DNA of 64,000 nt from Vreelandella profundi. GTDB taxonomy: Bacteria > Pseudomonadota > Gammaproteobacteria > Pseudomonadales > Halomonadaceae. Made by a program: the position numbers and the translations under genes. Location of the stretch: contig NZ_CP077941.1 of NCBI RefSeq assembly GCF_019722725.1, positions 434,001 through 498,000 on the forward strand, written 5' to 3'. Positions 12,289 to 17,699 of the stretch are shown here, piece after piece (position 1 is the first letter of the stretch; every line of letters begins with the position of its first letter). Below the pieces are notes generated by a model. That model was not told the origin of the DNA. It did not search any database and saw nothing but the letters and a program-made list of their open reading frames with translations.

Positions 12289-13548
12289 ATGAATCTTACT
12301 GAACTCAAGCAAAAAACCGTTCCCGAGCTCCTCGATATCGCCCGTGAAATGGGTATTGATAACTTGGCCCGTTCGCGCAAGCAGGACATCATTTTCGCCA
12401 TCCTGAAAAAACACGCCAAAAGTGGCGAGGATATTTATGGCGACGGTGTGCTGGAAATTCTTCAGGATGGCTTTGGCTTCCTGCGTAGCGCTGACAGCTC
12501 CTATCTGGCCGGTCCAGATGATATTTACATTTCGCCTTCACAGATCCGTCGTTTCAATCTGCGCAAGGGCGATTCCATTTCAGGCAAAATCCGTCCGCCG
12601 AAGGAGGGTGAGCGCTATTTCGCCCTGCTCAAGGTCAGTCAAATCAATTTTGACCGCCCGGAAAATGCCAAGCACAAGATACTGTTTGAGAACTTAACGC
12701 CCCTGTTCCCAGACGAACGTATGCGTATGGAGATCGGTAACGGCTCCACGGAAGACCTTACCGCGCGGATCATTGATCTAACCGCGCCGATTGGTAAAGG
12801 CCAACGTGGCTTGCTGGTATCGCCGCCTAAAGCGGGTAAAACGCTGATGTTGCAAAACATCGCGACCTCCATCACGCGTAACAATCCAGAATGTCATCTG
12901 ATCGTACTGTTGATCGATGAGCGTCCTGAAGAAGTGACCGAAATGTCGCGCACCGTGCGTGGCGAAGTGGTTGCATCGACCTTTGATGAGCCGCCAGCGC
13001 GTCACGTGCAAGTCGCCGAAATGGTTATCGAGAAAGCCAAGCGTTTGGTTGAGCACAAGAAAGACGTGGTCATCCTGCTCGACTCGATTACCCGCTTAGC
13101 GCGCGCTTACAACACCGTGGTGCCTAGCTCCGGCAAAGTACTCACCGGTGGTGTCGATGCGCACGCGCTTGAGAAGCCAAAACGCTTCTTCGGTGCGGCG
13201 CGTAACATCGAAGAGGGCGGCAGCCTGACGATTATCGCCACGGCGCTGGTCGATACCGGCTCTAAGATGGACGAAGTCATCTTCGAAGAGTTCAAGGGTA
13301 CCGGCAACATGGAAGCCCACCTGGACCGCAAGCTGGCCGAACGTCGCGTATTCCCCGCGATCAATATCCGTCGCAGTGGCACTCGTCGTGAAGACTTGCT
13401 GGCCTCTGAGGATGAAATGCAGCGCATGTGGATTCTGCGTAAGCTGCTCAATCCGATGGAAGACACCGCCGCGACCGAGTTCTTGATTGACCGTCTGAAA
13501 GATACCAAGACCAATCTTGAGTTCTTTGAAGCGATGAAGCGCCGCTAG
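12289..13548 (+). CDS. rho: Transcription termination factor Rho
   Basis: Rho is the hexameric RNA-dependent ATPase helicase that ends transcription. The 419-residue length equals that of E. coli. The N-terminal helix bundle ([18 protein letters not shown]) is followed by the cold-shock-like RNA-binding domain ([20 protein letters not shown]). The RecA-like core carries Walker A ([11 protein letters not shown]), Walker B ([16 protein letters not shown]) and the Q- and R-loop region ([21 protein letters not shown], split in the sequence). There is no strong Shine-Dalgarno before the ATG, but the N-terminus aligns directly with known Rho proteins. Confidence 0.98.
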
Positions 13549-13624
13549 CGTGTTATTCATATCAGCGCTGCTAGCGTTGAGTGGGACAAACGCCGCCGCG
13601 CAGTAGCCAGCCAGGGAGCGTGCC

Positions 13625-15121
13625 TTGAAGTACAAAGACCTGCGTGAGTTCATTGCGGCGTTAGAAGCCCGTGGTGAACTCAAACGTATCCATGTCGAAG
13701 TCGATCCTTATCTGGAAATCACTGAAATTTGCGACCGCACGCTGCGTGCCGGTGGCCCGGCGCTGTTGTTTGAAAACGTCAAAGGCCATGACATGCCGCT
13801 ACTGGGCAATCTCTTTGGTACCCCCAAACGGGTAGCGCTGGGAATGGGGCAGGACTCGGTAGAAGCGCTGCGAGAAGTCGGCAAGCTGCTGGCGTTTCTC
13901 AAAGAGCCTGACCCGCCTAAAGGCTTAAAAGATGCCTGGGACAAGCTGCCGATTTTCAAGCAAGTGCTCAGCATGGGGCCTAAAAACGTCAAGCGAGCGC
14001 CGGTGCAAGAAGTGGTTTACGAGGATGACGACGTCGACCTTGGCCTGCTGCCGATCCAGCACTGCTGGCCTGGCGATGCAGGGCCGCTGGTCACCTGGCC
14101 GTTGGTGATTACCAAAGGGCCGCATAAAAAGCGCCAAAATCTCGGTATTTATCGTCAGCAGAAAATCGCTAAAAACCGCCTGATTATGCGCTGGCTCTCC
14201 CATCGCGGCGGCGCTTTGGATTTCCTTGAGTTTCAAAAAGAACACCCAGGTGAGCCGTTTCCGGTGGCAGTGGCGTTAGGTGCTGACCCGGCGACGATTC
14301 TTGCGGCCGTTACGCCCGTGCCAGACTCGCTTTCGGAGTATGCCTTTGCAGGGCTGCTACGTGGCTCGCGTACTGAGCTAGTCAAGTGCGGCCACGCGGA
14401 TCTTGATGTGCCGGCATCGAGCGAAATCATCCTCGAAGGCTTCATCTATCCTGACGACATGGCAGCGGAAGGCCCCTTTGGTGACCACACCGGTTACTAC
14501 AATGAGGTCGATCACTTTCCTGTCTTTACCGTCACCCGTATGACCATGCGCCGTGACGCGATTTACCATTCTACCTACACCGGGCGTCCGCCTGACGAAC
14601 CGGCGATCCTCGGGTTAGCGTTGAACGAAGTATTTGTGCCGATTCTGTGTAAACAATTCCCAGAAATTGTCGACTTTTATCTGCCGCCAGAAGGCTGTTC
14701 GTACCGCATGGCGGTGGTCACGATGAAGAAGCAATACCCTGGTCACGCCAAGCGCGTAATGATGGGGGTCTGGAGCTTTCTGCGACAGTTCATGTACACC
14801 AAGTTTGTGATTGTGCTGGATGACGACGTTGATGCCCGCAACTGGGAAGACGTCATTTGGGCCATCACCACACGGATGGATCCCGCGCGCGACACCGTGC
14901 TCGTGGAGAATACGCCGATTGATTATCTCGATTTCGCCTCGCCGGTCTCAGGCCTTGGGTCGAAAATGGGGTTAGACGCCACCAATAAATGGCCGGGTGA
15001 AACAGACCGGGAGTGGGGCACCCCCATTGTGATGGACGAAGCCGTTAAAGCGCGTGTGGATGATCGCTGGGAAGCGCTTGGGATCGGCCTTGATTTGCCG
15101 CCCTCTCGCCACGGCGGTTAA
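13625..15121 (+). CDS. ubiD: 4-hydroxy-3-polyprenylbenzoate decarboxylase UbiD (TTG start)
   Basis: UbiD decarboxylates the polyprenylated 4-hydroxybenzoate ring in ubiquinone synthesis, using prenylated FMN made by UbiX. The 498 residues match E. coli UbiD (497). Recognisable stretches are [20 protein letters not shown], the [20 protein letters not shown] segment of the active-site region, [11 protein letters not shown], and [15 protein letters not shown] sequence near residue 395. Translation appears to start at TTG 13625 behind AGGGAGCG. It lies 76 bp after rho, and fre follows, as in E. coli where ubiD and fre are neighbours. Confidence 0.97.
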
Positions 15122-15191
15122 ACGTGCGGCGTTATAGTTGACCGAAATAGTTGAGCGAAATAGTTGAGCGAATTTGCAAAAAGAGGCTTTC

Positions 15192-15932
15192 ATGAGTGCA
15201 AGGACGTTGACTTGCCAAGTTACCGAAGTTGAGAACTTGAACCCCGATGTGTTTGGCGTGACGCTCGAAGGGCGCGCCGAAGCCATGCAGCATGCACCGG
15301 GCCAGTATTTAGAGCTTAAGTTAGACGATACCACCTGGGTGCCGTTTTCGATTGCCAGCTTCGATCGCGGAGTTGGCATTATTGAACTACATATTCAGCA
15401 TTGGCCGGAGCGAAGCAATTCCGTGCGTCTGCGAGAGCTGTTGAAGGTCGCAAATCAACTAACACTGCGGCTGCCGGGCGGTGAATGTGTACTGGATCGC
15501 CAAAGCCAGCGGCCGCTAATGCTCATCGCCGCGGGCACCGGCTTTTCGCAGATGAAAGCCATGGTTGAGGCGGTGCTGCACGAGCAGCCCGACCGGCAAG
15601 TGTCGCTATGGTGGGCCGCACGCGAGCACCGGGATCTTTATCTAGAGCAGCTGGCCAGCCACTGGGCGCAAACGTACTCCAACGTGTCATTCCATGCGGT
15701 CACCGAGCTTCCGTTAGAAGAGCCGCTAGCGGTGGGAGAGCGGATTACCCATCAGCAGGGGCGTATTGATGACGCCCTGAAGGCTGCCGATATTGCCCCG
15801 CACGCTCATGATGTTTATTTATCAGGGTCGCCAGGCATGGTGTATGCCTGTCTGGACGTGCTTGAAAGTAAAGGCATGCCATTAGAGCGCGTATTTTCAG
15901 ACGTGTTCGCCTATGCGCCACGGGCTAGCTAA
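15192..15932 (+). CDS. fre: NAD(P)H-flavin reductase Fre
   Basis: Fre reduces free riboflavin or FMN with NAD(P)H, and adjacency to ubiD suggests it helps supply reduced flavin. It is a ferredoxin-NADP reductase-fold protein of 246 residues: a flavin-binding barrel with WVPFSIASF (the R/P-x-Y/F-S-type motif) and an NAD-binding half with MLIAAGTGFSQMKAM and a terminal FAYAPRAS. The start is ATG 15192, preceded by AAGAGG at 15181-15186; an in-frame start six codons earlier lacks a ribosome binding site. It differs from FNR by lacking a C-terminal aromatic extension. Confidence 0.92.
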   Translation: MSARTLTCQVTEVENLNPDVFGVTLEGRAEAMQHAPGQYLELKLDDTTWVPFSIASFDRGVGIIELHIQHWPERSNSVRLRELLKVANQLTLRLPGGECVLDRQSQRPLMLIAAGTGFSQMKAMVEAVLHEQPDRQVSLWWAAREHRDLYLEQLASHWAQTYSNVSFHAVTELPLEEPLAVGERITHQQGRIDDALKAADIAPHAHDVYLSGSPGMVYACLDVLESKGMPLERVFSDVFAYAPRAS

Positions 15933-16133
15933 TATCCCAGGCATGACCTGTCTTAGGCGCGCTTAAGCTCTGTTATCAGCCCTGTTTGACTTGAAGGGCA
16001 CCGCTGAGCGGCAGGCTTTTAGCAGATGAGTATTGCCATTTGAAACGCTTGCAGGCAGGATAAAGTCATTACGCCACTGCGAAAGCCCTTTGGGCTATCC
16101 CTCGGGCCTTACCATTACCAGCGGAAAATAAGC

Positions 16134-16301
16134 ATGCTACAACGCGCCACGTCATTCACAGCTAAGCCCCAGCCGATAACGGCTGATGGCGTGCGTGCGT
16201 GCGTGGAAAGCCTACCGCCAGTGCGTAGCACTGAACTGGTTAACAGCACTGCAGCTTATTGGTATTGGTTTAGCCACGGTGTGCCCTTGGCCGACGCCTA
16301 A
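16134..16301 (+). CDS. 55-codon leader peptide with Tyr-Trp-Tyr-Trp-Phe run, upstream of DAHP synthase
   Basis: ATG 16134 opens a 55-residue frame ending at TAA 16299-16301. Residues 42-46 are Tyr-Trp-Tyr-Trp-Phe (codons at 16257-16271), the three aromatic end products of the pathway begun by DAHP synthase. The run lies 6 nt before the first strand of a strong hairpin and the stop codon falls in that hairpin's apical loop, the geometry of trpL/pheL-type attenuators. The ribosome binding site (GGAA at 16123-16126) is modest. At 55 codons it is longer than classic 14-16-codon leaders, so an internal GTG start (codons 20 or 24) is possible. The protein itself is probably not functional. Confidence 0.8.
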   Translation: MLQRATSFTAKPQPITADGVRACVESLPPVRSTELVNSTAAYWYWFSHGVPLADA

Positions 16302-16322
16302 CGTCGCGCTACCAGGCACACC
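16278..16322 (+). promoter_or_regulatory. Pause (1:2) hairpin of the aromatic attenuator
   Basis: GGTGTGCC (16278-16285) pairs exactly with GGCACACC (16315-16322). Inside it, TGG (16288-16290) pairs with CCA (16312-16314), and CGACG (16292-16296) pairs with CGTCG (16302-16306) around the loop CCTAA that contains the leader stop codon. A ribosome stalled on the Tyr/Trp/Phe codons would cover the left arm. The freed downstream stretch GGTTGCC (16327-16333) can pair with GGTAACC (16359-16365) in the loop of the terminator, a plausible antiterminator (seven pairs, one of them G-U). Confidence 0.75.
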
Positions 16323-16348
16323 ACTCGGTTGCCTGCCGCAAGCACAGA

Positions 16349-16388
16349 AGCCCCGGTCGGTAACCCCGCCGGGGCTTTTGGCGTTTTT
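16349..16388 (+). terminator. Intrinsic terminator of the aromatic attenuator
   Basis: AGCCCCGG (16349-16356) pairs perfectly with CCGGGGCT (16369-16376) around a 12-nt loop. It is followed by TTTT (16376-16379) and a second TTTTT (16384-16388). It lies 228 bp before the DAHP synthase and 47 bp after the leader-peptide stop, with no other gene to terminate. This position makes it an attenuator rather than an end-of-operon signal. Confidence 0.85.
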
Positions 16389-16455
16389 GGACGTATCTAA
16401 GTTCTTGTACGTATCGAGAGCGATCGTCATCATTATTTCATTAAGGAGCGGCACC

Positions 16456-16614
16456 ATGATTTATCGCGCACTGACTAACGCTTTTGCTATCGGCTTTGTG
16501 GGCTATTGCTATGGCTGGCGATTTAGCGGCGCGCGGTCGGTGCAAGCTACCACCTCCGATCGTGTTCGCCTGGGTGGTCACTTAGTCAAACGATGTACGA
16601 TTACGGAGAGTTAA
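16456..16614 (+). CDS. 52-residue small protein between attenuator and DAHP synthase
   Basis: ATG 16456 follows a perfect Shine-Dalgarno AAGGAG (16443-16448) at ideal spacing, one of the best in the window. The frame ends at TAA 16612-16614, two bases before the DAHP synthase ATG, whose own GGAGAG lies in its last codons, so the two are probably translationally coupled. The first 23 residues contain seven aromatics (Tyr3, Phe10, Phe14, Tyr17, Tyr19, Trp21, Phe23) in a hydrophobic segment; the C-terminal half is basic. It could be a small membrane protein or a second aromatic-sensing leader. No family is recognised. Confidence 0.55.
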   Translation: MIYRALTNAFAIGFVGYCYGWRFSGARSVQATTSDRVRLGGHLVKRCTITES

Positions 16615-16616
16615 TC

Positions 16617-17699
16617 ATGAATGCGCCCATCAGTTCTGCTGTCAATTGCCCTGTAATAGCTAACCCTAGTATCGATACAACCTTCAGCGCGTCGTCTGAA
16701 AGGCTGCCCACCCCCGATGCGCTTCGTCAGCGTATCCCGCTGAATGACTCGCTACGTGAGCAGATTTCTCGCCAGCGTCACGCCGTTCAGCAAATTTTAA
16801 GCGGTCAGGATGATCGCCTGCTGGTCGTTGTCGGCCCCTGCTCGGTGCATGACCCTAAGGCGACGTTAGAGTATGCCGATCGCTTATCCGTGCTCAGCGA
16901 GCAGGTGAGCGAACGTATTTTGCCGGTGATGCGCGTCTATATTGAAAAGCCGCGCACCACTGTGGGTTGGAAGGGGCTAGCCTACGATCCTGATTTGGAT
17001 GGCAGCGGTAATATGGGGCGTGGCTTAGCGCTCTCCCGTGAGCTGATGCATGCGGTTGCCGCACGCGGGCTGCCGGTGGCTACCGAGCTTTTGCAGCCAA
17101 TGCTGGCACCCTATTTGGACGATTTACTGAGCTGGGTAGCGATTGGCGCACGCACCACGGAGTCACAGCTGCACCGTGAGCTCGCCAGTGATTTAGCCGC
17201 CGCGGTGGGGTTTAAAAATGCCACCAGCGGCGATGTACAGGTGGCGATTGATGCCATGGAGGCGGCGGCTCATCCACACCAGCGCTTCGCGGTTGATTCT
17301 CAGGGGCACCCTATTGTCCAGCAAGCGGCGGGAAATCCGCATACTCACGTCGTATTACGCGGCGGCCACGGTGAGCCCAATTACCAGGCGCATCACGTGC
17401 GTGCGGCCATTGCCGCGCTGCGTAACGCTGGGCAAAATCCACGGCTGATGGTGGATTGCAGCCACGCTAACGCGCGTAAAGACCATCGTCGCCAGAGCGA
17501 AGTCATGCTGGATGTGCTGGCTCAGCGCCAAGCGGGTGAGGCAAATCTCGTCGCGCTTATGTTAGAAAGCCACCTGTTCGAAGGCAAGCAGCCGTTAAAG
17601 CCCGGCGCAATGCGCTATGGCGTGTCGGTCACCGATGCTTGCATGGGCTGGGAAACTACCGAACATCTGCTAAAAACCGCCGCCGAGCGTTTAGCTTAG
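16617..17699 (+). CDS. 3-deoxy-7-phosphoheptulonate (DAHP) synthase, AroF/AroG type
   Basis: The enzyme condenses phosphoenolpyruvate and erythrose 4-phosphate, the committed step of the shikimate pathway. It is a type I-alpha DAHP synthase of 360 residues with LLVVVGPCSVHDPKATLEY, VMRVYIEKPRTTVGWKGL, SWVAIGARTTESQLHREL, GFKNATSGD, LRGGHGEPNY and LMVDCSHANARKDHRRQ. The wording around DCSH and the C-terminal KYGVSVTDAC-like stretch resembles AroF (Tyr-sensitive) slightly more than AroG, but feedback specificity cannot be settled by eye. The start is ATG 16617 behind GGAGAG. The upstream attenuator suggests control by aromatic aminoacyl-tRNA levels. Confidence 0.95.
   Translation: MNAPISSAVNCPVIANPSIDTTFSASSERLPTPDALRQRIPLNDSLREQISRQRHAVQQILSGQDDRLLVVVGPCSVHDPKATLEYADRLSVLSEQVSERILPVMRVYIEKPRTTVGWKGLAYDPDLDGSGNMGRGLALSRELMHAVAARGLPVATELLQPMLAPYLDDLLSWVAIGARTTESQLHRELASDLAAAVGFKNATSGDVQVAIDAMEAAAHPHQRFAVDSQGHPIVQQAAGNPHTHVVLRGGHGEPNYQAHHVRAAIAALRNAGQNPRLMVDCSHANARKDHRRQSEVMLDVLAQRQAGEANLVALMLESHLFEGKQPLKPGAMRYGVSVTDACMGWETTEHLLKTAAERLA

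Follow-up and report, generated by a model that had tools for sequence, protein, structure and literature searches.

The locus upstream of the DAHP synthase gene

The 64 kb of DNA analysed here (the window) carry a gene for 3-deoxy-7-phosphoheptulonate (DAHP) synthase, which is preceded by a leader reading frame, a series of predicted RNA hairpins and a second small reading frame, ORF2. These features, all on the forward strand, are as follows:

16134-16301, forward strand: leader peptide ORF, 55 amino acids; a homologous leader in 78 of 80 named relatives
16257-16271, forward strand: control codons Tyr-Trp-Tyr-Trp-Phe (codons 42-46, TAT TGG TAT TGG TTT)
16278-16322, forward strand: core (pause) hairpin, arms 16278-16285 and 16315-16322
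16313-16335, forward strand: alternative hairpin, 16313-16317 with 16331-16335; supported by RNAalifold, by pairing in alignments A1 and A3 and by the masking simulation (all below)
16327-16365, forward strand: antiterminator, 16327-16333 with 16359-16365, plus an extension, 16335-16338 with 16354-16357
16345-16386, forward strand: intrinsic terminator with T-rich tail, from the minimum free energy (MFE) fold and covariation
16456-16614, forward strand: ORF2, 52 amino acids, aromatic-containing, ending 2 nt before the DAHP synthase ATG
16516-16527, forward strand: TGGCGATTTAGC, encoding Trp-Arg-Phe-Ser of ORF2; all 12 bases in 71 of 80 rows
16534-16578, forward strand: possible H-type pseudoknot, 16534-16540 with 16556-16562 and 16549-16554 with 16573-16578
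16617-17699, forward strand: DAHP synthase; NCBIfam TIGR00034 (3.7e-130) and NF009395 (2.7e-148), both over cut-off

A first-pass annotation of this DNA had described a 55-codon leader with Tyr-Trp-Tyr-Trp-Phe at codons 42-46, followed by a small ORF and DAHP synthase. The leader and its codons are present where it had placed them, and the next genes are indeed ORF2 and then the TIGR00034/NF009395 match. Conservation guided the choice of the DAHP synthase start codon; the ATG at 16593 is also in frame and is an alternative start in the window, but by eye it is not present in all relatives. The genes further upstream, in 12289-15932, we take by eye to resemble Rho and a UbiD-type decarboxylase; the same interval also holds a relative of NAD(P)H-flavin reductase, below cut-off. 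The genome, one contig of 3.64 Mb, also encodes a second DAHP synthase elsewhere (G000:C1:1441205-1442191, locus L002).

The leader reading frame and its aromatic codons

The leader comprises 55 codons and a stop, and its translation ends in ...AAYWYWFSHGVPLADA. Among ten leaders, a Shine-Dalgarno-like AGGAG precedes a start in three (L042, L045 and L061), and the window has GGAAAA. A pattern scan of 15900-16650 found no match to a sigma-70 promoter. Throughout the six frames of the window, 27 of 87,693 stop-free stretches contain at least five aromatic codons per ten with all three kinds represented. These fall in 12 places, three of which lie between 16242 and 16525, namely the leader, a frame across the terminator and the adjoining small ORF. 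The codon cluster alone is thus not unique within the window, and the decisive evidence comes from comparison with relatives.

A scan with the DAHP synthase protein yielded 80 named loci from Halomonas, Vreelandella, Chromohalobacter and their relatives, which we call Halomonadaceae. In 78 of these an upstream leader ORF with an aromatic cluster is present, and its stop codon precedes the DAHP synthase match by 263 to 467 bases; at the other two loci, L069 and L072, only 14 and 103 bases of DNA precede the gene. When the window is counted in, Phe, Tyr and Trp occur within one 10-codon stretch in 76 of 79 leaders, with a mean of 5.3 aromatics per ten codons. The predicted leader is hence, as in an attenuator, a short ORF rich in codons for the end products. 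In A1, our alignment of 55 leaders, the last Phe codon (16269-16271) is TTT in every row. The Phe and Tyr codons of the leader clusters are mostly TTT and TAT (TTT:TTC 118:20, TAT:TAC 133:26); in the DAHP synthase genes at these loci, TTC and TAC prevail (50:145 and 144:297, respectively). The preference in the leaders may reflect slow codons or RNA pairing.

Mutually exclusive hairpins supported by covariation

Structures were evaluated in A1 and in A3, a joint alignment of 38 leaders that includes other families, against slid structures and 500 shuffles; the shuffles ignore relatedness, so that the results are not probabilities. The RNA folding that had been proposed as a check gave z = -4.99 for 16254-16388, with none of 200 shuffles as good, and the whole nested MFE structure of the window pairs in 80.5% of A1 cells, against 38-50% when slid. 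As for the alignment of Halomonadaceae, likewise proposed beforehand, it bears out both the aromatic codons and the hairpins as conserved, and the hairpins covary.

The composite pause hairpin of the first-pass annotation, said to hold the leader stop codon in its loop, is found at 16278-16322. Inside it lies an inner stem, 16288-16296 with 16302-16311, whose loop contains the stop codon (16299-16301). The core arms covary: 97.7% of A1 cells are paired, three of the eight pairs are doubly changed, and 93.0% of cells are paired in A3. A previously suggested antiterminator pairing, 16327-16333 with 16359-16365, is also present and can be extended by the four base pairs 16335-16338 with 16354-16357. 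Including this extension, 88.5% of A1 cells are paired (18-66% when slid) and six of 11 pairs are doubly changed; for the seven core pairs in A3 the values are 90.2% and four of seven, and one of these pairs shows U-A, C-G and A-U.

The terminator had been described as a perfect 8-bp hairpin. A terminator is there, but its stem is longer, running in the MFE fold from 16345-16356 to 16369-16380. Its helix is paired in 84.8% of A1 cells, with seven of 15 pairs doubly changed. A pattern scan for terminators was not significant alone (one found against 0.9 expected) and listed 16367-16383, which is not the main stem.

To the competing structures proposed earlier, which hold, we add one more, the alternative hairpin 16313-16317 with 16331-16335, drawn by RNAalifold and paired in both leader alignments. 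It excludes both the core hairpin and the antiterminator. Its cells are paired at 98.5% in A1 (29-67% when slid), with one of five pairs doubly changed, and at 95.6% in A3, with two of five. At the outer pair, 22 of 55 A1 rows have G-C in place of C-G, perhaps through one event. Paired cells and covariation score exceed all 500 shuffles in A1 and A3; the number of doubly changed pairs is not above the shuffles, being reached by 77 of 500 in A3 and by 500 of 500 in A1. In the MFE fold the codon region also pairs with region 2 (16327-16338). This pairing is present in 85.3% of cells, compared with 26-52% when slid, and shows no covariation above shuffles (85.3% versus 84.9%); its bases are partly fixed by coding.

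On the evidence of these alignments, the predicted pause hairpin, antiterminator and terminator are mutually exclusive, and the predicted intrinsic terminator stands before the structural gene, both as in an attenuator.

The same arms bear on a rival reading, in which the leader is a nascent arrest peptide that stalls in the exit tunnel on a free aromatic compound rather than for lack of charged tRNA. Most Halomonadaceae leaders do show conservation at the protein level after the codons, in the form FSxGVPxA. However, GVP is the codon reading of a core-hairpin arm that covaries with its partner, and outside the family the sequence after FS differs (HWRA, QRRA, QNPGRP) while the aromatic content stays. 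We therefore consider an arrest peptide highly unlikely.

Folding with a masked ribosome

Each leader was folded at equilibrium and for a single transcript length, stopping short of region 3 (16354-16365), with a ribosome masking all bases up to 10 or 13 nt past the A-site codon's first base. Over the 55 A1 rows, an A-site on the Tyr and Trp codons (16257-16266) makes the core hairpin the likelier, with a mean probability of 0.62-0.88. With 13 nt masked, the alternative hairpin has a mean of 0.10-0.37 at these positions and of 0.95-1.00 from 16269 on. The core hairpin is thus lost one codon after the stalled zone, as the alternative hairpin reaches 0.95-1.00. With a leading edge of 10 nt the step shifts one codon on, and the stalled state reaches up to the Phe codon. 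The step therefore places the end of the aromatic codons where the switch turns. Stalled states leave region 2 partly free, its mean unpaired probability being 0.36-0.48 for an A-site at 16260-16266 (13 nt). At 14 loci outside A1, 11 of them from other families, the alternative hairpin likewise stands at 0.08 with the A-site at 16266, 0.62 at 16269 and 0.98 at 16272 (13 nt), and at 0.56 when no ribosome is present. Without a ribosome, region 2 of the window leader pairs with the codon region at 0.99 (mean over 55 rows, 0.40).

Equilibrium folding of a transcript extended to 16368 fails to separate the states, which speaks against a purely thermodynamic switch. Wherever the ribosome stands, region 2 is then more likely to pair in the antiterminator, with a probability above 0.5 in 67-100% of rows. 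Since it is favoured at all ribosome positions once region 3 is present, the switch must be kinetic and set before region 3 is made.

A predicted attenuator reading aromatic codons

Sequence comparison and folding models together point to a ribosome-mediated transcription attenuator of the trpL/pheL kind, which very probably sets DAHP synthase expression according to how much tRNA-Tyr, tRNA-Trp and, with less certainty in this species, tRNA-Phe is charged. From the observed sequence, conservation, covariation and gene context we infer stalling, its timing and its effect on transcription as follows. Under aromatic shortage, the ribosome would stall on the aromatic codons, right before it reaches the core hairpin, which would be left standing and holding 16315-16322. 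Region 2 would then be free to pair with region 3, which would block the terminator and allow DAHP synthase to be transcribed. When aromatics are plentiful, the ribosome would proceed, melt the core hairpin and free 16313-16317; this segment would capture region 2 and leave region 3 to the terminator, so that transcription would end near 16380. In an untranslated leader, region 2 could pair back on the codon region, as in the MFE fold of the window, and this would also lead to termination.

The proposal that mixed aromatic codons let one element sense three amino acids stands in large part, given the 76 leaders with Phe, Tyr and Trp and the covarying hairpins, but for the window's species Phe sensing is the least sure of the three, because its cluster has a single Phe codon, which comes last and sits at the edge of the switching zone. 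A refinement would be that the attenuator of this species reads Tyr and Trp only, with the Phe codon carried for the hairpin or for the conserved TGGTTTAGC stretch. In addition to that codon's place at the switch boundary, the absence of Phe from the nine codons before the last Phe in 32 of 79 leaders speaks for this narrower reading; against it, Phe, Tyr and Trp all occur within those nine codons in 46 of 79 leaders, and the last Phe codon is invariant in A1. We regard it as rather unlikely; the element appears to read Tyr, Trp and probably Phe.

Relation to Pseudomonas sRNA P15 and occurrence in other families

No Rfam family scores above its gathering score anywhere in the window. Between 10000 and 25000, the sole match at E ≤1 is P15 (RF00627, "Pseudomonas sRNA P15"), at 23.6 bits and E 0.25; it falls short of the gathering score of 70, and its E-value in the window's genome is 0.0146. 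When 244 genomes of the order were searched with P15, 24 matched at E ≤0.01 and 11 over the cut-off. The window's genome, at E 0.0146, is not among the 24, and matches within its own family reach E 3.1e-8. None of 14 named control genomes matches at E ≤0.01, and seven of the 14 also match at E ≤10. A DAHP synthase gene lies within about 1.5 kb at every one of the 27 P15-matched loci, which represent 24 distinct sites plus three repeats of them, partial or on the reverse strand. The same position, an alignable structure and covarying helices shared in A3 indicate common descent, and judged from this alignment the window element is homologous to P15. Leaders outside the window's family read ...FYFGYWFSHWRA, ...YFFYGYWFSQRRA and similar.

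In a rival reading, the element acts in trans as a small RNA or is a metabolite riboswitch, which is how its relative P15 has been regarded: P15 is filed in Rfam as an sRNA gene, and the available part of a 2008 survey suggested from synteny that P15 of P. aeruginosa may be a riboswitch (PMC2527527). However, a DAHP synthase gene close to every P15 match places the RNA in cis, in the relatives that were read an open frame containing aromatic codons runs along its strand, and the arms of an attenuator account for its structure. This reading of the element is very improbable. Rather, the attenuator points to a function for P15 and probably accounts for an RNA known in databases only as a Pseudomonas small RNA.

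A search model was built from A3 and run with fast filters, so that weak members are missed. It matches 42 of the 244 genomes of the order at E ≤0.001. All 37 matches with E ≤4.5e-5, one per genome, adjoin a DAHP synthase gene; of ten weaker matches, one (L198) lies beside DAHP synthase, another falls on the opposite strand of a site already counted, and the remaining eight are not next to this gene. Among 274 genomes of the class, nine have a match, four of them beside DAHP synthase, comprising three already counted and G553 of another family; the other five are weak (E 2e-4 or more) and not beside this gene. The leader is thus found in at least eight families (f1, f7, f20, f21, f38, f39, f43 and f207), of which f21 would be the Pseudomonadaceae, judging from the Rfam name, and a large part of the sampled families have no match to the model. 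In the window's own genome the studied leader is the one match, the second DAHP synthase gene having none. The leaders of f20 (L181-L185, L199, L202-L204) are extremely aromatic, for example FFWWFGYGFYFSQ.

Comparison with known systems

Leader-peptide control codons, mutually exclusive hairpins and a terminator before a biosynthetic gene characterize the E. coli trpL and pheL leaders, and the window shares all of these. Unlike trpL and pheL, which sense one amino acid each and precede genes of terminal branches, it has codons for three amino acids before the first common enzyme, as well as an additional small hairpin that competes with the antiterminator. The element is probably an attenuator of known type with an unusual three-amino-acid content. 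An aroF attenuator in Corynebacterium glutamicum is reportedly dealt with in a paper later than the one on which we draw here. In the available part of the latter, a leader with Phe-Tyr-Phe before this DAHP synthase gene is named a putative attenuator, which is like the window by description; it differs in coming from a distant phylum and in that no Trp is mentioned there (PMC4046766). P15 resembles the window in its position before DAHP synthase and in its aligned leader codons, hairpin and terminator, and differs in being called an sRNA by Rfam and in the window's score of 23.6 bits against a gathering score of 70.

In the accessible portion of a regulon survey of Proteobacteria, TyrR and TrpR control DAHP synthase genes, and attenuation is given for trp and pheA (PMC5343134). 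The main text of a survey of premature terminators, as far as available, does not mention DAHP, aroF, aroG or P15 (PMC2965389), and the parts seen of two further papers contain nothing on the element (PMC12125101, PMC7822408). The first-pass annotation had left it undecided whether the element was already described in relatives: its homolog is listed, as the sRNA P15, but searches of open-access papers yielded no description of the element in pseudomonads or halomonads, most subscription papers being outside the scope of the search. In several families akin to the pseudomonads and halomonads, the entry into aromatic synthesis would be controlled by a single RNA that reads up to three amino acids, in contrast to the TyrR/TrpR repressors used in E. 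coli. The design would be simple, with codon position setting the switch.

ORF2 and a possible pseudoknot

In A2, an alignment of 53 rows of the ORF2 region, the ORF2 frame is open through the first 99 bases in all 53 rows, and stop codons interrupt the two remaining frames in 30 and 50 rows. In 47 of the 53, the ORF2 stop falls within a span from 7 bases ahead of the DAHP synthase ATG to 4 bases past it. The first ten bases of TGGCGATTTAGC, TGGCGATTTA, occur in all 80 rows (the window and 79 of 80 loci), in a search whose pattern fixed seven of the ten bases. At 32 loci, mostly from other families, TGGCGATTTA lies in such an ORF in 13 (all eight of f21, two of f43, one of f20 and two of genus g15), CTGCGATTTA occurs in one, TGGCGATTTT in one, and 17 have none by this search. 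The TGGCGATTTA search did not find ORF2 at eight of nine f20 loci. Within the window, GCGATTTAGC occurs exactly once, at 16518. NCBIfam has no match for ORF2 or the leader and Rfam none for ORF2, and entropy by codon position did not point to a conserved peptide in those parts of ORF2 that vary.

Downstream of the motif, the two stems of the possible pseudoknot (7 and 6 pairs) are paired in 99.0% of cells over 53 Halomonadaceae rows, against 27-50% when slid, and five of the 13 pairs are doubly changed. On A2, RNAalifold, a program that does not handle pseudoknots, finds the first stem with nine pairs; it pairs 16573-16578 with the invariant motif and not with 16549-16554, and without a doubly changed pair. 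A stable nested fold of the region was rejected, since z = +1.10 and +0.34 are no better than shuffles, for nested folding only.

We interpret ORF2 and the putative pseudoknot as another element at the RNA level, linked to the translation of DAHP synthase; it may be a second layer of control before a gene of practical interest for aromatic production. That DAHP synthase is under two aromatic-reading devices in series is a tentative proposal that we would not yet favour. ORF2, which has codons for Tyr, Trp and Phe, would then act as an attenuator of translation, encode an arrest peptide or be part of a ligand-binding RNA, in any case of an undescribed kind.

Frameshifting from ORF2 into DAHP synthase was considered, as the pseudoknot follows an invariant motif, and was rejected: the DAHP synthase frame of the window has a TAG inside TTTAGC, the open frame of some relatives stops short upstream (e.g. 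G047, 355 codons), and no slippery heptamer is seen by eye. A regulon marked by TGGCGATTTAGC was also rejected, on a sample of 14 sites. The pattern is present in 52 of 145 genomes of the order, and the 14 sampled sites away from DAHP synthase lie mostly in unrelated coding sequence, with none ORF2-like.

Finally, three smaller observations concern this region. CTCCG of ORF2 could mask the Shine-Dalgarno sequence of DAHP synthase. It should also be noted that CGATGT (16591-16596), which contains the ATG at 16593 and follows the pseudoknot, is nearly invariant in Halomonadaceae, and that some relatives, among them L019, L023 and L025, have a 12-base insertion at 16591-16596 in A2, which holds a similar stretch.
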